Shown piece after piece: positions 54,578-62,960 of a DNA stretch of 64,000 nt (positions within the stretch are counted from its first letter, which is position 1; each line of letters starts with the position of its first letter). The translations under genes were made by a program, and so were the position numbers. The stretch is taken from positions 42,599 to 106,598 of the forward strand of contig JAKIUF010000010.1 of NCBI GenBank assembly GCA_021647705.1, written 5' to 3'. The notes under the pieces are model-generated. The model saw only the letters and a list, made by a program, of their open reading frames with translations. It made no database searches and was not told the DNA's origin. Origin of the DNA: Gammaproteobacteria bacterium. GTDB lineage: Bacteria; Pseudomonadota; Gammaproteobacteria; SZUA-152.

Positions 54578-56098
54578 ATGAAAACACGTATCCAACAGCT
54601 TCAGACCGCCTTGCAATCAGGACTGATTGAACGCGAAACACCGGTTCGTCTGGCCTTGCTGGCAGCCCTCTCGGGAGAACACCTGTTATTGATTGGTGCG
54701 CCCGGCACCGCTAAAAGCGCACTGGCACGAAGACTCCACCTTGCCTTTGATCATGGCCAGTATTTCGAGCGACTGCTCACCCGGTTTTCTGTACCGGAAG
54801 AACTGTTTGGCCCGTTATCCATCAAGGCGCTGGAAGATGACCGCTATGAACGCCTGATACAAGCCTACCTTCCCGATGCATCCATTGCTTTTATTGACGA
54901 AATTTTCAAAGCCAACAGCGCCATCCTCAATGCATTGCTCACAATACTGAACGAACGTGAATTTGATAACGGCAGCCAGCGCATCAAAATTCCGCTGGTT
55001 GCGGTGATTGCGGCCAGCAATGAACTGCCTGAAGGTGACGAACTGGATGCATTGTATGACCGGTTTTTATTGCGCTATCAGGTTGAGCCCATCAGCCCCG
55101 AAGGCTTTAGCCGCTTGTTAACCCTGGAAAACACAGAAACACCGGTCATTGATCCACACTGGAAACTGACCCGCGACGACCTGCAACAAATACAAACGCA
55201 ATCTGCGCAAGTCCTGCTGGATGATGATGTTCAATACCTTTTGCGCCAATTGCGCGAACATTTAACAACACAAAACCATTACGTATCAGACCGCCGCTGG
55301 CGGAAACTGGTGAAACTGCTCAAAGTGGCCGCCTGGACAGATGGGCGTAATACCGTTGACGTATGGGATTGCTGGTTATTGCAGCATTGCCTGTGGCATT
55401 CACCGGAACAACGCGCCGACTTGTTGCAATGGTATGAAAAAAGCCTCGGCGCAGATGCCATTATTAATCCCGCACGCCTCACCCGTTTGGCAGATACCTG
55501 GGAAAATACCCTGAACAACGAACAGGGCAGTCGTCGGCAACTAAACGATGAAAACGGTAACCCGTTATATCTCGACACAGAAGGTGAACCGACACCGCGC
55601 TCAGGCCATCAGGAAGAACTGACGATAAACGGAGAGCCATTATATCTGGCACCCCCCGATCAGGCTGACCGTACCAATAACGGCAAAGGCTATCAGCAAA
55701 AAGAACTGGCATCACTCTTCTTTGATGATCATTATCAACAATGCCACATCGACGGGAAATGGGTCTCCCTGGCGCAATACACCGCAGACCCGGAAAACCG
55801 TTTAACCCGCGACATTCACTACCCCCCACATGCTGAACCCGTATACTTCAGCCAGACACATATCGCCGAACGGGTGCAGGAAGTACAGGTCATCCTGGAC
55901 GCCATTAAACGCTACGAACATGCCGCAGATGAAAAGCTGTCAACATTAAAAGCCGACATATCACAACGCCTGTGGGTGGAAAAAACCTTCGTTGTTCCGG
56001 CCCATGAAAACCTGCAACAAAGCCTTCGCGTTGTTCAGGCACTGGCCGAACGCATCGAAAAACTGCGTGACGGTTTTAGCCAGCTACCGGTAAAATAA
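54578..56098 (+). CDS. ravA: MoxR-family AAA+ ATPase RavA
   Basis: A 506-aa (E. coli 498) AAA+ ATPase. Walker A is GAPGTAKS (residues 40-47), Walker B is IAFIDEIFKANSAI, and sensor 1 is VIAASNELPEGDELDALYDR. A long C-terminal region (about 310-420) rich in short Asp/Gly loops corresponds to the LARA discoidal domain, and a helical end follows. With ViaA it acts as a chaperone-like system; in E. coli it touches fumarate reductase, Nuo and phospholipids. Downstream viaA is on the same strand, separated by a 376-bp repeat-filled gap. Confidence 0.92.
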   Translation: MKTRIQQLQTALQSGLIERETPVRLALLAALSGEHLLLIGAPGTAKSALARRLHLAFDHGQYFERLLTRFSVPEELFGPLSIKALEDDRYERLIQAYLPDASIAFIDEIFKANSAILNALLTILNEREFDNGSQRIKIPLVAVIAASNELPEGDELDALYDRFLLRYQVEPISPEGFSRLLTLENTETPVIDPHWKLTRDDLQQIQTQSAQVLLDDDVQYLLRQLREHLTTQNHYVSDRRWRKLVKLLKVAAWTDGRNTVDVWDCWLLQHCLWHSPEQRADLLQWYEKSLGADAIINPARLTRLADTWENTLNNEQGSRRQLNDENGNPLYLDTEGEPTPRSGHQEELTINGEPLYLAPPDQADRTNNGKGYQQKELASLFFDDHYQQCHIDGKWVSLAQYTADPENRLTRDIHYPPHAEPVYFSQTHIAERVQEVQVILDAIKRYEHAADEKLSTLKADISQRLWVEKTFVVPAHENLQQSLRVVQALAERIEKLRDGFSQLPVK

Positions 56099-56132
56099 GC
56101 AAGCCCGGTGTTGTGAACGCAGAGGCCGCAGA

Positions 56133-56186
56133 GACGCAAAGGACGCAAAGGACGCAAAGGACGCAAAGGACGCAAAGGACGCAGAG
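56133..56186 (+). repeat. 9-bp tandem repeat (VNTR) inside a CGCAAAG-type element
   Basis: Five perfect units of GACGCAAAG and a sixth GACGCAGAG. Together with the arm CCCTTTGCGCCTCTGCG (56208-56224) it forms a hairpin element between ravA and viaA. The unit number is likely to vary by slippage. The rest of the gap 56099-56474 holds a family C palindrome (56278-56310) and another CGCAAAG-type arm (56380-56415). Confidence 0.85.
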
Positions 56187-56474
56187 AAAAACGCAGAAAA
56201 TTTTAAGCCCTTTGCGCCTCTGCGATTTTATCAACCACGGATATGGTTGCTGGTTATTGAAACATGAACAACCTCTCCCGTCATTCCGGGCTTGTCCCGG
56301 AATCCAGTGGTACGGAGTGACGATCTGACGTTAACGTAACAGTAGAATTTATCACTCAAATATTTAAAGTTTCGGTGTTTTTCTCTGCGTCCTTTGCGTC
56401 TCTGCGCTTATAACACCGGGTTTGTGGCAGAGCGATATACTATTTTTTTACTACGGGTATAATTTTCCATACCC

Positions 56475-58010
56475 ATGAAACAGAATGTTCATCAACATGT
56501 TAATACGCTCACCCAGCGCCAGGCCGGAGATCCCAGACTCATGAAATCCCTATACCTGGAAGAACAGTTTCAGTTTCTGGACGCACTTCCCGAAACCCTG
56601 TTTGACCGGGTGGTGACATTGGCATACGGCAACCTGCAAGAACGGGTTCGTGGCATACTCTTTTGGCGGGAACATCTTTTACGCGGCTCTCTGCCGCCAG
56701 TTGATGATATTTTCTGGCCGGAACCGGACATCGCAAACATCATTCATCAACGTCTTCACGCGGTTGAATTGTTACCCCTTTGTCACGACGAAGAAAGCCT
56801 GGTTGACCAGATACTGCAAGACATCTGCACAGCCATTGAAAGCATTTTACAGCGGCAGGCACACAATACGTCAAACCTGTTTGACGACATCCTCGCACAA
56901 CAACCCCCAAAAAATACAACTAATTCCCATCAGTCAGAACAAAACACAGTTGACGACAATCCGCCAGCCACCATTGAATTTAACAACTTGGAAGATGTGG
57001 CTAAAGGCCTCGAACAGCAATGGATAAAATTAGTGTTTCAATGGAAAGAAACCCGCGAAACGTTCAGCAGCATGGGAACCCGGCTGGGGCGGGGCTGGGA
57101 CCTATCCAAAGGCATCCTGACAACAGCAGGCTGGCATGACTTTATCGCCTATCGAAAACTGATCCATGACCACCCACAACTCAAGAAAGTCATCAGCATC
57201 CTGGGACAAAAACAGCAAACCGTTTCAGCACACAAGCGATCCCGTATCAGCACCACATCAAATAATACATTAATAACCGCAGAAAAACCGGTAAAAACCG
57301 AATCACCACTATCAACACAAGGCGTAACCCGGAGTGGCGACATTGCCCGCATGCTGCCACAAGAAGCCGTATTCCTCGGCCACCCAAAACTGCACATGCT
57401 CTGGCATGCGCGCCGTGCAGAAAATGCATTACTAAGCTATCGGGTAGAAGGCGTACTGTCAGATCACCAGCCAGACATACCCACACTGGAAAAAAGCCAT
57501 CGGTATTCAGCACCCGCTGACACAAGGAAAAAAGGCCCCATCATCCTCTGTATCGACACCTCAGGCTCCATGCACGGAGAACCCGAACGGCTCGCCAAAG
57601 CGATTTGTCTGGAAGTCATCCGCCAGGCCACCCGTTTGAAACAACCCTGTTTATTATTTGCATTCAGCGGCCCCGGCCAACTGCTGGAACAATCTTTATC
57701 ATTTGACCGCAATGGCCTGCGGCCAATTATTCGTTTTCTGCAACAAACATTTCACGGCGGAACCGATATTCGCGAACCCTTCGCCCGCGCCCTGGAAAAA
57801 ATCACAGAACGTCACTGGCAACACACGGATATTTTACTGGTCAGCGATGGCCGGTTTCCTGTACCGGAGCACCTGACAAAAAAACTGGCAGATGCCCAAA
57901 AACGGGAAGGCCTGCGTGTTTTCGGGATAACCGTCGGTCATTGGTCATCATCTTCGATGGAGGCTGTCTGTCAAACGGTATACCGTGTTAACACAAAAGT
58001 TTCAGTCTGA
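56475..58010 (+). CDS. viaA: VWA-domain protein ViaA
   Basis: A 511-aa (E. coli 483) partner of RavA. The N-terminal 300 residues are helical (LEEQFQFLDALPETLFDRVV), and a C-terminal von Willebrand A domain carries the MIDAS motif DTSGSM starting at Asp361 (CIDTSGSMHGEPERLAK). GGTDIREPF and LLVSDGRFPVPE supply the other metal ligands. The conserved pre-VWA block EAVFLGHPKLHMLWHARRAE is typical. The operon link with ravA is interrupted by repeats and might need its own promoter. Confidence 0.92.
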   Translation: MKQNVHQHVNTLTQRQAGDPRLMKSLYLEEQFQFLDALPETLFDRVVTLAYGNLQERVRGILFWREHLLRGSLPPVDDIFWPEPDIANIIHQRLHAVELLPLCHDEESLVDQILQDICTAIESILQRQAHNTSNLFDDILAQQPPKNTTNSHQSEQNTVDDNPPATIEFNNLEDVAKGLEQQWIKLVFQWKETRETFSSMGTRLGRGWDLSKGILTTAGWHDFIAYRKLIHDHPQLKKVISILGQKQQTVSAHKRSRISTTSNNTLITAEKPVKTESPLSTQGVTRSGDIARMLPQEAVFLGHPKLHMLWHARRAENALLSYRVEGVLSDHQPDIPTLEKSHRYSAPADTRKKGPIILCIDTSGSMHGEPERLAKAICLEVIRQATRLKQPCLLFAFSGPGQLLEQSLSFDRNGLRPIIRFLQQTFHGGTDIREPFARALEKITERHWQHTDILLVSDGRFPVPEHLTKKLADAQKREGLRVFGITVGHWSSSSMEAVCQTVYRVNTKVSV

Positions 58011-58256: not shown

Positions 58257-58352
58257 TCGACTGCCTGAAGCAAGAAAAACGGCCCTCATACAACATCTGC
58301 GTTTTAAGAACCCAGCGGCTTTATCGCTGTGCGATAACAGCACAAGAAATAA

Positions 58353-59230
58353 TTAACAAGCTTGCTTAACCTGACAGCTATCCCCTTTACCCACGCCGAC
58401 CCCCGCTGCCATTCCCAACATGCGCGTAGCAAAGGAATGCCGGAATGTATGGCAAGAACCTTTTTTGTGTACCCCCCTTGCCGGATGGCCTGCTTTACTG
58501 CCCGTTGCATACTCGTTTCGTAGAGATGATGTCGGCGTCGCTGACCAGAAACCGGATCAATGGAAAGTCGTGGTGCCGCAAACAGAAACTGCCAGTGCAG
58601 ACTTTTGGCTTCCGCCGGATACTTTTTCGCCAATGCATGGGGCATCTGCACTTCTCCATAGCCATCTGCCAGATCCTGCTGGTGAAAGGCATGCACACGT
58701 TCCATTGCCCTACGCAAATCAGGCACAAGATGTTCGGGGATAATCGTCACCCGATCCTTTCCACCCTTACCGCTACGCACTACAATGGCAAGGCGCTCAA
58801 AATCGATATCCTTCAACCGGAGGCGCAAAGCCTCCATTAATCGCAAGCCGCTACCGTATAACAAAGAAGCGATAAGATGATACGGTTGATCCAGCTGGCA
58901 AAAAATGGCACGAATTTCCTCGCGGGAAAAAACCACCGGGATACGCCGCGATTGCTTCGCACGAACCACACCATTGATGTTTTCAAAAGGTCTCTCAAGC
59001 ACCTGCTTATAGAGAAAAACCAACGCATTGAAAGCCTGGTTTTGGGTAGAGGCAGAAACTTGCCGGTTAACAGCCAGAAAATTGAGAAAAGCGGAAGCCT
59101 CTGGTTCCGATATCTCCGCCGGATATCGCAGATGGTGAAAGCGAATAAAAAACCGTATCCAGTAACAGTATGCTTTTTCAGTCTTGCGGCTGTAGTGTCG
59201 CACCCGGATGGCAGTTCTGACCTAATCCAT
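58353..59230 (-). pseudogene. intI: Integron integrase IntI, inactivated
   Basis: A tyrosine recombinase of the integron type. YGSGLRLMEALRLRLKDIDF, VVRSGKGGKDRVTIIPEHL and the IntI-specific extra region (QDLADGYGEVQMPHALAKKY ... RRHHLYETSMQRAVKQAIRQ) are preserved. There are three lesions. The natural start ATG at 59230 is followed by TAG at codon 3 (MD-stop-VRTAIRVRHYS, consistent with CAG changed to TAG). A one-base loss near 58458 shifts SCHTFRHSFAT out of frame. The 3' end after HSFATRML is lost, so the catalytic Tyr is gone. A LexA box lies upstream. An alternative GTG start at 59203 would escape only the first lesion. Confidence 0.88.
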
Positions 59231-59266
59231 TAATCGTAATTCCTGCATCGTTGTTTATCCTTTTAG

Positions 59267-59282
59267 CTGTATCCATACACAG
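59267..59282. promoter_or_regulatory. LexA (SOS) box upstream of intI
   Basis: CTGTATCCATACACAG matches CTGT-N8-ACAG perfectly, 37 bases upstream of the original intI start. LexA control of integron integrases is established in Vibrio and class 1 integrons. Confidence 0.75.
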
Positions 59283-59565
59283 TATTATTGAATAACATGA
59301 AAGTAATGGAGTCAAGCAGTACGCCTTGATATTGGGTGGATATTGGTTAAATTTACATTAAATCTCTGTATTTTCAACAAGTTGCAGAGCCATATTTTTA
59401 CTTGATATCCCGACGATATCCGGCGTATGCCGGATATTTACCCATACCCCTTGTGCAGGTTTGAAAAGTACATAATAATCAGAGTGATATGAATGAAAAT
59501 TCAAAAGATGAAAAAAGACATAGACGGCTTAAGCCGGATATTAAGAGTTTAATGATGGAGAAAAT
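59283..59565. other. Region between intI promoter and first cassette gene (probable attI area)
   Basis: 283 AT-rich bases. They contain a possible recombination core GTTAAAT (59346-59352, fits GTTRRRY), a hairpin ATATCCGGC-GTAT-GCCGGATAT (about 59418-59439) and a small palindrome CGGCTTAAGCCG (about 59524-59535). An attI site is expected here by position but cannot be fixed by eye. Confidence 0.35.
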
Positions 59566-60843
59566 ATGAAGGATTTATTCCCTGGTCATTTTAAAGAAAG
59601 TGATAAAAGCCTAAAAGAAGTATGGGATACGTCGCTGTTTGTATTTGATGCAAATATCCTTCTAAACCTCTATCGATATTCAGATACGACTCGTAATGAA
59701 TTTCTGCGTATTTTGGATAAAATCAAAGATAGAGCATGGCTACCCCATAGGGCTGCTGAAGAATACTTGAACAATCGATTGTCGGTAATCGACCAACAAG
59801 AAAAATCATACGATGACACGACAAAATCAATTGAGTCATTAAAACGAGATTTAGAGAACGCTCGTCAACACCCCTTTGTTAGTAAAGGGGTTATGGATAA
59901 GGTGGATAGTGTCTTCGAAGAACTTTGTAATGAGCTAAAGAACAATAAATCCGTTCATACAACTCGTATTAGCAGTGACGAGATTAAAGATTCTATTGCA
60001 GGCATATTTGAAAACAGGGTAGGTCATCCTTACGAGAAGGAGCGGATAGAGCAACTAATTTCTGAAGGTGAAGAGCGATATAAACAAAAAATCCCACCTG
60101 GCTTTAAAGATAGTTCGAAAGCGGGTGATAGCGAGGTTTTCGCGGAGAAATGCAGAAAGTATGGCGACCTCATTGTATGGACTCAGGTGATCGATAAAGC
60201 GACTGAGTTAAATAAAGGTGTGGTGCTGGTAATTGATGACAAAAAGGAAGACTGGTGGGAAAAATTTAAGGGCAAGACGGTAGGTCCCCGTCCAGAGTTG
60301 GTAAAGGAGTTTAAGGACAGAGCAAATCAAACATTTCATATGTATCAAGCAGACCGTTTCCTTGAATTGGCCAGAGAGAATCTAGGAGAACAGGTAAGTG
60401 AAGAGATTGTTGAAGAGATAAGGGAAGTAAGGCGTCGTGATAAATTGGCGTATCGACGAATGAAAGAGAGAGAGCTATACAAACACCGGAAAATGAAGCA
60501 AATGCATTTGGCAGAAGAACTAGATAATGTTCGTCATCAAATGGCTAGTTACGAAAAAGAAATGCATGTGCTTCAAGATAAAAGTCATAGGCTTGAAAGC
60601 GAAAAAAGTAGCCTAAAAGAGTATAGAAATAAAATGTTTCACGAGGGTGGCGATGAGCATTTCGATGACGATCAATTGACCGACCATTACTATCATGTTT
60701 CAAAGAATTACGATGAAGTTATGCATCGCTTAGATACATCACGAATGAAATATCAGGAGTTGAGACAGCATATGGCTGTACTCGAACAAGAGATAAGCCA
60801 CAGCATGAAAAACATTGAACAAGAAAATGCAGCGGACTCGTAA
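59566..60843 (+). CDS. PIN-like nuclease domain protein with coiled-coil tail (integron cassette gene)
   Basis: A 425-aa protein. The N-terminal half (about 25-265) is PIN-like of the PIN_8/DUF4935 kind: FVFDANILLNLYRYSDTTRN (first acidic ligand), WLPHRAAEEYLNNR, GDLIVWTQVIDKA and VVLVIDDKKEDWW (later acidic ligands). From about 285 to 420 it is a long charged coiled coil (RRRDKLAYRRMKERELYKHR ... RLDTSRMKYQELRQHM). Proteins of this type occur in defence islands and as lone cassettes, and RNase activity is inferred. It ends inside an attC site, and its AT-rich composition differs from the core genes. Confidence 0.8.
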   Translation: MKDLFPGHFKESDKSLKEVWDTSLFVFDANILLNLYRYSDTTRNEFLRILDKIKDRAWLPHRAAEEYLNNRLSVIDQQEKSYDDTTKSIESLKRDLENARQHPFVSKGVMDKVDSVFEELCNELKNNKSVHTTRISSDEIKDSIAGIFENRVGHPYEKERIEQLISEGEERYKQKIPPGFKDSSKAGDSEVFAEKCRKYGDLIVWTQVIDKATELNKGVVLVIDDKKEDWWEKFKGKTVGPRPELVKEFKDRANQTFHMYQADRFLELARENLGEQVSEEIVEEIREVRRRDKLAYRRMKERELYKHRKMKQMHLAEELDNVRHQMASYEKEMHVLQDKSHRLESEKSSLKEYRNKMFHEGGDEHFDDDQLTDHYYHVSKNYDEVMHRLDTSRMKYQELRQHMAVLEQEISHSMKNIEQENAADS

Positions 60844-60869
60844 ACTCGCCGCTGATTTAGGCGTTAGGC
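60814..60869 (+). other. attC recombination site of the first integron cassette
   Basis: R'' ATTGAAC (60814-60820, imperfect), L'' AAATGCAGCGG (60825-60835), L' CCGCTGATTT (60849-60858), R' GTTAGGC (60863-60869). L'' and L' pair completely except for one unpaired G at 60829, the extrahelical base expected in attC. The loop is 13 nt. The crossover point is predicted between 60863 and 60864. Confidence 0.72.
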
Positions 60870-60895
60870 TTAATTGATAAATTGGAGTAAGAATA

Positions 60896-61072
60896 ATGAT
60901 TAGTTGGAATCCTGAAATATTGAATCGATGCGCAGCTCCAAAAATAAGTGAATTTACATCAATGGAGTTAGCTGATATTTCAAGTGAGTTTCCCGAATCA
61001 GCATACTGGCTGCAAAATCATTTTTTGAATAACACTCCTTTGAGGAAGCCGTTTAAGGCACCATTAAAATAA
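60896..61072 (+). CDS. Small protein of second integron cassette (58 aa), unknown
   Basis: The frame encodes MISWNPEILNRCAAPKISEF, TSMELADISSEFPESAYWLQ, NHFLNNTPLRKPFKAPLK. It begins 33 bp after the cassette junction with a TTGGAG site 10 bases upstream, the usual position of a cassette's first gene. Its stop abuts the next start (TAAATG), so the two are coupled. No family was recognised. Two short genes in one cassette recall toxin-antitoxin pairs, but no toxin or antitoxin motif is visible. Confidence 0.6.
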   Translation: MISWNPEILNRCAAPKISEFTSMELADISSEFPESAYWLQNHFLNNTPLRKPFKAPLK

Positions 61073-61546
61073 ATGGCTGTCAACTATATTCAGAAAGCAC
61101 AGTACATTTTTCACGAGTACAATATAGTTAGAGAGCTATCTGACAAATATCACAAGAATAATTCGCCAAATAATCCGAAATTATCTGAGTATTACTTACT
61201 GATATACCATTTATCAAACATATTTATTCAGTATTGTTCAGCCATAGAGGCGTGCAATACAATAAATAAATTTCTTGGTGATGATAGTAAGGCATTTAAT
61301 AAAAATGATGGTAGCGCTGAGCAGCGTGCATATGAAATCGGTAACTCCATAAAACATGTGGCAATCTGTATAGATAGTGGGGTGTGCGAAAATGATCATA
61401 CCTTGTCAATATGGCTAACTAATTCATTGGTCGAATCATTTGATGTAGAAATTTCGTTTAAAGAACTAGAAAATTGCATCAGGGATGTTGGTCGTTTTGC
61501 AGAACCTTTGGTAGACCCAATGACATTTTCTGATAAGGTCAAGTAG
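61073..61546 (+). CDS. Hypothetical helical protein (157 aa), second cassette
   Basis: It starts directly after the 58-aa gene and is 157 aa with no membrane segment. The helical content includes LSEYYLLIYHLSNIFIQYCS then AIEACNTINKFLGDD, and EIGNSIKHVAICIDSGVCEN. The pattern of long helices with scattered polar residues is loosely HEPN-like, but the RxxxxH nuclease motif is absent. AT-rich and cassette-borne. The function is unknown; an attC site for this cassette was not found before the IS element. Confidence 0.6.
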   Translation: MAVNYIQKAQYIFHEYNIVRELSDKYHKNNSPNNPKLSEYYLLIYHLSNIFIQYCSAIEACNTINKFLGDDSKAFNKNDGSAEQRAYEIGNSIKHVAICIDSGVCENDHTLSIWLTNSLVESFDVEISFKELENCIRDVGRFAEPLVDPMTFSDKVK

Positions 61547-61593
61547 GGGGTGTAGATCAGCCACTGACAAAAGCGGTCAAATCGATGGGGTCA

Positions 61594-62960
61594 GACTCTG
61601 ACGGCTCCCCACAAAAAGTTCTTTAAAAACGGAAAGTTATAGGATATATTTCGTTCAAAACCGTGCATGCATGGTGAAAATAACTTCCCCTTTGAGACTA
61701 ACCCAGTCGATAAGGAGAACCGTCATGCATACACTGAAAGTACTGCATAACAAACTCAAGCAAGCATGTCCTTTCATCCATCTAAAGCGCCTAGCTGTTC
61801 TTATGCTCGCCACCCAGGCTCTACTCATCGGCCAGCGTTTATCTTTAACGCAACTCGGTCGTCGCTTAGTCTCAACGGCATTGGTAAAACATAATATCAA
61901 ACGCATTGATCGCTTATTAGGTAACTGGCACCTGCATCAGGAACGAAACAGTATTTATCAATTTATGTCACAAGCCTTACTAAAGGGTAATCAGCGACCC
62001 TTGATCATTGTCGATTGGTCAGAATTAACCACCGATCGTGATTACCATCTGCTGCGAGCCTCCCTACCCGTCGGTGGGCGTGCCTTAACCTTATATGAAG
62101 AATCCATTCTATGAAGAAGTCCATTCGCAAAAAAATATCGGCAGCCCGAAAGTGCATAAGACATTCCTACGCACCCTGCAAAAACACTTACCTGATACCT
62201 GTTGTCCAATTATTATTACCGATGCTGGCTTTCGCAACCCCTGGTTCAAAATGGTTATAGCATTAGGCTGGGATTATGTAGGCCGCATCCGTAACCGAGA
62301 CCTCCTAAAACCCGTAAAAAGCAGTGATTGGGTGCCCTGTAAAACCCTGTATGCAACAGCGACGTATCGGGCACGCTACCTTGGAGAATACACCACAACA
62401 CGTAAAAATCCTCTCAATAGCCATCTTTATCTTGTTAGACAAAAAGCCAAAGGCCGACATCGCTACAACAAGGATGGCTCGAGAACCACTCGAGGACAAA
62501 GTGAAAAAGTCGCTCAGCGTGAAAAAGAACCCTGGCTAATCACCACCTCTCTGCACGGCAGCCAGAATAACGCGCAGCAAATTATTGCCTACTACAAAAC
62601 ACGCATGCAGATCGAAGAATCCTTTCGAGATATAAAAAGTCATCGCGTGGGATTTAGTATCAGTGAAAGTTTGACACGCAACCAGGTACGGCTGGAAATA
62701 TTATTACTCATTGGCGCTCTAGCGACATACCTTGCGTGGTTAACGGGAGTGTTTATCGAACTTAAACAATGGCACTGGCAATATCAATCCAGCAGCATTA
62801 AAACCCGGCGAGTGTTATCGACATTTTTTATCGGTTGCCAAGTGGCAAAAGAAGGTAAACTAGAACTTGAAAAACAGGAATATGAAATGGCGCTATTACA
62901 CGTTATAGATAATGCTTTGGCGCAGGGGAGCACTTGATTTTGTGGGGAGCCGTCAGGGTC
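61594..62960 (+). mobile_element. IS4-family (IS10-like) insertion sequence
   Basis: Terminal inverted repeats GACTCTGACGGCTCCCCACA at 61594 and, inverted, TGTGGGGAGCCGTCAGGGTC ending at 62960. The 1.37-kb element carries one transposase gene. No clear 9-bp target duplication was found at these borders. It is inserted just after the second integron cassette. Confidence 0.85.
61725..62937 (+). pseudogene. IS4-family transposase with a frameshift
   Basis: The protein is close in pattern to IS10 transposase: CPFIHLKRLAVLMLATQAL, KHNIKRIDRLLGNWHLHQER, then the DDE residues in VDWSEL, ITDAGFRNPWFK and YYKTRMQIEESFRDIK (the YREK block). The first frame (from ATG 61725, with AAGGAG upstream) stops at 62114. 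The rest continues in another frame from 62095, with the break near 62106. Both halves are otherwise intact, so a one-base loss is the simplest explanation. IS10-type elements do not use programmed frameshifting. Confidence 0.85.

Follow-up and report, generated by a model that had tools for sequence, protein, structure and literature searches.

The integron and its integrase gene

The stretch analysed here, called the window below, comprises 64,000 nucleotides at the right end of a contig from a gammaproteobacterial genome (GCA_021647705.1; G000:C68:42599-106598, with G for genomes, C for contigs and L for loci). The assembly consists of 82 contigs and is rated as 96.06% complete with 0.62% contamination. 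The window holds what is very probably a dead chromosomal integron platform, made up of an integrase gene (intI) with a LexA box and three lesions, an attI site, a cassette that carries a PIN-domain gene and its attC site, and a broken second cassette (Table 1). A sequence-only reading had proposed a relic SOS-type chromosomal integron at this place, and the lesions, the LexA box and the attC support that proposal.

The remains of intI score 324.9 bits against TIGR02249 (curated cut-off, 265) over profile positions 12-259 of 315, and 332.5 bits in a genome-wide search in which its one internal TAG was read through. The open piece at 58306-59203 (-) matches TIGR02249 and PF13495/PF00589. The catalytic residues of IntI are R, HxxR, H and Y, and no continuous frame with these residues is present in the window, as the gene is broken by the TAG, a frameshift and a 129-bp deletion. 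These are the three lesions that the sequence-only reading had listed, although two of them need rewording. The nonsense codon had been placed at codon 3, which is true if the count starts at the second ATG; the upstream ATG, which is also used by the intact relative described below, makes it codon 9. The frameshift lies just before HTFRH, as claimed. The catalytic Tyr is indeed gone, but through an internal deletion of 43 codons between HTFRHSFAT and the tail TRML and not through loss of the gene end, and the tail is retained in a shifted frame. In the intact relative, the missing segment contains the LLGH and YTH motifs. The window intI is thus a pseudogene, and no activity in cis is expected of it.

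The perfect LexA box that had been described upstream of intI is present. It lies 18 bp before the upstream ATG and within the -100 to +50 interval around the intI start, and SOS regulation of the integron is predicted from it. The box is kept in the same-genus genome G004 and at another site in the source genome (C81), differs only in N8 in G007 C204 and at the source genome's C21, and has decayed in G007 C239. Excerpts of PMC3108266 report putative LexA sites in 56.6% of 1,103 intI genes and predicted inactivity in 43% of 1,135, with inactivation correlating with the absence of LexA control. The dead intI of the window differs from that trend in that it keeps its LexA box.

Table 1. Features of the integron in the window
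Feature	Position	Strand	Evidence
intI pseudogene (integrase of attI family A, our label)	58353..59248	-	TIGR02249; intact orthologue in G004
Junction of 129-bp in-frame internal deletion; catalytic His and Tyr segment gone	58423..58424	-	
One-base deletion (frameshift) directly before HTFRH	58472..58477	-	alignment with intact orthologue
In-frame TAG, codon 9 from upstream ATG (59248)	59222..59224	-	
Predicted LexA box CTGT-N8-ACAG, CTGTATCCATACACAG, intI promoter	59267..59282	.	
attI (family A), crossover after G59547; left limit provisional	59283..59547	+	G004 comparison, multi-copy alignment
Cassette 1	59548..60863	+	junction 7-mer GTTTAAT against R'' ATTGAAC, 6/7
PIN_8-domain gene, 425 aa, intact; stop inside attC	59566..60843	+	PF18476, E 4.7e-65
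attC of cassette 1	60814..60869	+	covariance model R1
Cassette 2, incomplete; no attC match before the insertion sequence (IS)	60864..61598	+	
Cassette 2 gene, split by in-frame stop into 58 aa and 157 aa	60896..61546	+	
IS4-family element interrupting the array; transposase in two overlapping frames	61599..62955	+	NF033591, inverted ends

An intact orthologue and the same locus in relatives

The sequence-only reading had suggested that related genomes be searched for an intact copy, and one was found in G004 (L054:7434-8459(-), 341 aa). The window IntI shares 94% amino acid identity with it over 248 aa, and over 256 codons, with a single stop passed over, 35 synonymous and 13 nonsynonymous changes separate the two genes, which corresponds to an omega of 0.10. 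This low value suggests that purifying selection acted for most of the time since the two copies separated, and hence that the lesions are recent. The two integrases also group together in a tree of 34 rows (100/99). The best named database match of the window integrase is JAKISS010000032.1, a metagenome assembly labelled 'Gammaproteobacteria bacterium'; among organisms with a genus name, Thiogranum and Thiohalobacter come closest to it (61-64% identity). The integrases of mobile class 3 integrons belong to the same subfamily, with 45.9% identity among the matches listed, and the best 5,000 plasmid records all remain below 60% identity. A TIGR02249 match over the cut-off occurred in 21 of 40 genomes in a first search of relatives, with the source genome counted.

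The G004 platform is orthologous to that of the window but carries other cassettes after the attI crossover. In G007, the same locus beside ViaA has been found with almost all of intI deleted, and the LexA box and attI are kept there at 91.6% identity to the window over 215 bp (C204; L068, G007:C204:1-4230); the G007:C204 contig stops inside attI. In G003, a further genome of the same genus, a different gene comes after ViaA, and there is no integron beside ViaA. In the window itself, RavA- and ViaA-like genes adjoin the integron at 54578-58010, with NCBIfam scores under their cut-offs.

The attI site and the cassettes

The attI crossover could be placed by comparison with G004 and the other copies. 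Shared homology ends at GATATTAAGAG|TT (59547|59548), and past this point the cassettes of the window and G004 differ. The attI adjoins intI and has a G|TT crossover. An initial candidate crossover, GTTAAAT at 59346, was rejected as homology with G004 and the other copies continues to 59544-59547. The window attI is without 39 bp and one GCCGGATAT-repeat unit that other copies have. A 26-aa open frame (59489-59569) also lies in it and ends in a stop codon that shares bases with the PIN start codon (ATGA). Three full-length attI copies have a related, uninterrupted frame of 40 aa, which is changed in other copies and has two database matches; an attI-encoded small protein was dropped as a candidate, since pS = pN = 0.16 over the three copies and no coding constraint was seen.

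The attC of cassette 1 carries the case for a captured cassette. A hand-made script missed it, and a second script found it but ranked simple palindromes higher, and for this reason a covariance model (R1) was built from 26 attCs that were found by script in loci of other genera, with the same genus excluded. The site lies in array orientation, scores 40.4 bits (E 3.7e-7), far above chance, and is the sole model match in the window at E<=10. Its unpaired base is a G on the + strand and hence a C on the folded bottom strand.

The product of cassette 1 is a predicted RNase-like PIN protein, in which the acidic residues D28, E66, D201, D224 and D225 are invariant across 11 aligned proteins. It has 1,162 matches in the protein database, its own entry included; the best other match is 90% identical, and the named matches among those listed are mostly gammaproteobacterial. 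The gene itself was found only in the source genome, both among 23 genomes at E<=1e-10 (none of 22 relatives) and among 369 genomes drawn from the class at E<=1e-100. No match in phages was obtained at E<=1e-10, four partial plasmid matches were obtained at E<=1e-40, and the Protein Data Bank held no relevant sequence (best E 0.38). A known defence gene was considered and rejected, as PADLOC gave no credible match (best E 0.012, residues 264-420).

It is highly improbable that the PIN gene is no cassette but belongs to the resident genes and happens to stand behind a decayed tyrosine recombinase. The weakness of the attC fold alone would favour such a reading, whereas the covariance match, the crossover mapped against G004 and the absence of the gene from all 22 relatives speak against it. 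A weak attC score and relatives with the PIN gene at this place but no integrase had been named as what would tell against an integron, and neither occurs.

The claim that the cassettes are preserved holds for cassette 1 and fails for cassette 2, whose gene is split by a stop; both of its halves are spanned by the homologues P0124 (213 aa) and P0125 (219 aa). Given an intact first cassette, a split second gene and an IS that begins at 61599 before any attC, the array appears to have been assembled by capture, after which decay began. A second transposase-like frame lies at the contig end (63300-63998) and presumably resembles IS110. The sole Rfam gathering match in the window is an S15 ribosomal leader at 2415-2539.

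Several observations weigh against reading the window as a dead integron platform. A search for a cassette promoter in the window returned three sites, compared with 2.1 +- 1.0 in shuffled sequences, and none lay above chance. The structured attC that had been described at the end of the first cassette is upheld by the covariance model but not by its bare single-strand DNA fold, which falls short of significance (z -1.14, with an equally good fold in 27 of 200 shuffles). The junction 7-mer is complementary to R'' at six of seven positions, but 3 of the 22 AAC-ending words located 150-1,700 bases downstream reach 6/7, the attC's own included; it is thus the attC model match, and not the 7-mer, that carries the claim for the window. 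Finally, homology between the window and G004 stops about 116 bp past the intI stop, with differing neighbours beyond approximately 58237, and G004 thus shares the platform with the window and not the neighbourhood.

Other integrases and attI copies in the source genome

The source genome encodes two intact integrases elsewhere, on C54 (479.5 bits against TIGR02249; 55% identity to the window IntI) and C45 (386.7 bits; 41%), which fall in other lineages of the tree. Integrase pieces were also found on C38, C4 and C81, and the remaining matches are weaker tyrosine recombinases below the cut-off. Searches with the attI regions revealed 18 copies in three families. Family A has six crossover-reaching copies (window, C21, C81, C19, C2 and C8), family B has seven (C45, C4, C38, C12, C48, C47 and C32, where the crossover base is changed in C32), and family C has five (C54, a second C21 site termed C21b, C57, C51 and C40). 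Shorter pieces (C75, C32:72491 and C21:133594) were left out of this count, and C38:6419 was counted with the C38 copy, which an insertion splits. No intact integrase of family A is present in the genome.

Remnants of intI accompany some copies: about the first 50 codons remain at C81, and truncated genes remain at C38 and C4, while none was found at C21, C8 or C19. At L170:2041-4060 (G000:C21:1-12000), a LexA box, a family A attI, two attCs and two cassette genes occur with no intI match. L173, L171, L172 and L176 (C57, C21:136000-147000, C51 and C40) each have a family C attI and exact cassette ends with no integrase match. At C8 (L195:4880-6000, G000:C8:48000-60000), a cassette array encloses an attI tail, which is fused to the end of a truncated gene that we take to be GyrI-like. 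The cassette on the right of this tail has matching ends, and a degraded attC-like stretch on the left was recognised by eye and not called by the model.

The attC model identified 17 places in the source genome, 12 of which have a recognisable attI in front. The scan scored 150 of 1,273 first-look candidates, so the number of attCs is a lower bound. At the thresholds applied, the attC matches at C66, C16, C15, C60 and C38:24465 (the last two weak) were accompanied by no attI from any of the three families. The integrons on C45 and C54 have long inverted repeats nearby, which fall in variable loops of attCs. The reading frames L050:210-1577(-) and L049:1444-2280(-), both near attCs, presumably resemble group II intron reverse transcriptases.

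Across 24 genomes of the order, the source genome included, family A was found in three, family B in four (three with short matches only) and family C in 12 at E<=1e-5. Several family C matches each occur in G017, G019, G020, G007 and G008, with eight on five contigs in G017.

Cassette ends at the attI copies

A captured cassette should begin with a junction 7-mer complementary to the R'' of its own attC, and this was examined at the first cassette of each copy. Thirteen of the 18 copies in the source genome match, 11 at 7/7 and two (the window and C19) at 6/7. In all, 89 of 91 positions agree, a value that none of 100,000 permutations reached (mean 67.8, maximum 85). The permutation takes the junctions as fixed beforehand and consequently overstates their independence. 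For family A, the crossover was fixed by the G004 comparison; for families B and C, the matches at C54, C45, C38 and C4 themselves gave its initial placement, which was then supported by sequence before the junction that is common to other copies. Considering only the seven family A junctions from all genomes, the observed value was reached by 6 of 20,000 permutations. Matches at 7/7 were also found outside the source genome, at G004 C102, G004 C54 and G007 C239.

Eleven of the 13 attCs were found by the model independently of the junction. Some scored weakly: C45 16.2 bits (E 0.49-0.93), C8 17.5 (E 0.052, filters off), C4 20.9 and C54 24.2. Of the other two, the C19 attC (11.8 bits, filters off) owes its acceptance partly to the 7-mer, and that of C47 was found by the 7-mer and is only half an attC. 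Without these two, 11 junctions remain, of which all but the window (6/7) match at 7/7. No acceptable match was obtained at C81, C2, C12, C48 and C32. A 7/7 word at C12 and a 6/7 word at C32 have no attC and were excluded, while at C48 (close to the end of its contig), C81 and C2 no match involved an attC. Perfect 7-mers that are found by search alone can mislead.

Are the attI arrays still in use?

General integron biology suggests how such a platform would have worked. On SOS induction LexA would leave its box, and IntI would recombine attI, at G|TT, with a cassette attC in the form of its folded bottom strand. The most recent cassette would take the first place in the array and be transcribed from a promoter within or close to attI. 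The window cassettes were likely inserted by the local integrase while it worked, and they are predicted to be immobile at present, save for any action by an integrase from another locus of the genome. The further copies may have arisen when platforms were copied or shifted to other places on the chromosome, with intI eroded from its own side and the attI-array ends left in place.

It is improbable that the copies are artefacts of a mixed assembly, in which strain variants of one integron per family would lie on separate contigs. The fragmentation of the genome would allow for this, C4 and C38 differ from C45 by only 3-4%, and the G004 copy on C54 (99.7% over 298 bp), which stops where its contig stops, may be a strain variant. 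However, the copies in the source genome diverge from the query copies by 3 to 30%, most of them are located within contigs of at least 40 kb and have differing neighbours, and the completeness and contamination ratings do not point to a mixture.

Whether the window is truly frozen is uncertain because of the two intact integrases of other lineages. One explanation, which we hold to have about an even chance of being correct, is that several integrons entered the lineage, were copied or moved, and decayed in all but two cases, leaving the attI copies as scars. Ragged left ends and intI remnants at several copies are in accordance with this, as is the large share of predicted inactive intI genes in excerpts of PMC3108266; exact ends at 11 of the 13 counted junctions speak against long decay at those sites.

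The other explanation, which we regard as rather unlikely although far from implausible, is that the scattered arrays, the window included, form a distributed integron that is still used, with the C54 and C45 integrases acting in trans and the loss of local intI being cheap. It is favoured by the presence of two intact integrases in the same genome and by 7/7 matches at C38, C4, C47 (half an attC), C21b, C57, C51 and C40, all in families B and C and without an intact intI. According to excerpts of PMC12444791 and PMC9668308, a functional IntI can also move cassettes of clusters of attC sites lacking integron-integrases (CALINs) in trans. Against it stands family A, which has no intact integrase in the genome. 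The use of attI is usually integrase-specific, and the C54 and C45 enzymes have only 55% and 41% identity to the window IntI. Moreover, both imperfect junctions are in family A (two of four counted, against none of nine in families B and C), as would be expected if this family were frozen.

For the attI family of the window, the evidence leans to freezing, although the working integrases encoded elsewhere may serve its attI in trans. For the genome as a whole, we put forward tentatively that at least 13 attI-cassette arrays of three families, located on 12 contigs and accompanied by an intact integrase in two cases, have been kept with their cassettes while trans-acting integrases allowed local intI genes to die.

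Comparison with known systems

Inactivated chromosomal integrases are well known, and the window alone is a new example of a known thing. A close likeness is in Xanthomonas, for which excerpts of PMC12444791 describe repeated intI inactivation and CALINs at other loci; as in the window, chromosomal intI genes there carry nonsense, frameshift and deletion lesions, cassettes are retained and the loss is lineage-specific. In the same excerpts, the retained intI lies at one place (ilvD) and the other arrays are CALINs, whereas here attI sites of three families occur at many loci. More than one IntI is reported in 22% of IntI-bearing genomes (PMC9024848, in excerpt), and CALIN cassettes may be used in trans (PMC9668308, likewise).

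The arrays without intI in the source genome (C21, C57, C51, C40 and others) resemble CALINs as excerpts of PMC9024848 define them for IntegronFinder, but an attI precedes 12 of the 17 attC places, which marks these arrays as truncated integrons and not as bare attC clusters. The window likewise is no CALIN (an attC cluster, two or more by default, with no intI nearby), having an intI pseudogene, an attI and one attC. The C8 site recalls the delta-attI-type cassettes of PMC12901181, in that an attI tail on a truncated gene end lies in an array and is followed by the next cassette. Those cassettes are from class 1 and 2 mobile integrons, while C8 is chromosomal, a setting that the excerpts of PMC12901181 only surmise ('probably, also in SCIs').

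What is unusual is the setting: arrays with an attI occupy a dozen loci of a genome with few integrases, and this looks like a new form as far as the search reached. No title or abstract opening that describes scattered or multiple attI sites was found in a search that left most subscription journals uncovered, which is weak evidence of novelty.

Significance

An integron is commonly pictured as a single platform that carries a single array. If many attI docks with few integrases are confirmed, it can be asked whether other integrases make the loss of a local integrase tolerable. To our knowledge, current software annotates attI for classes 1-3 only, and comparison of the junction 7-mer with R'' would offer a cheap means of finding attI sites. 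A genome with many docks would also let one study the spread of attI sites along a chromosome, and ask whether units of attI and array are kept for the expression of cassettes and not for their capture.

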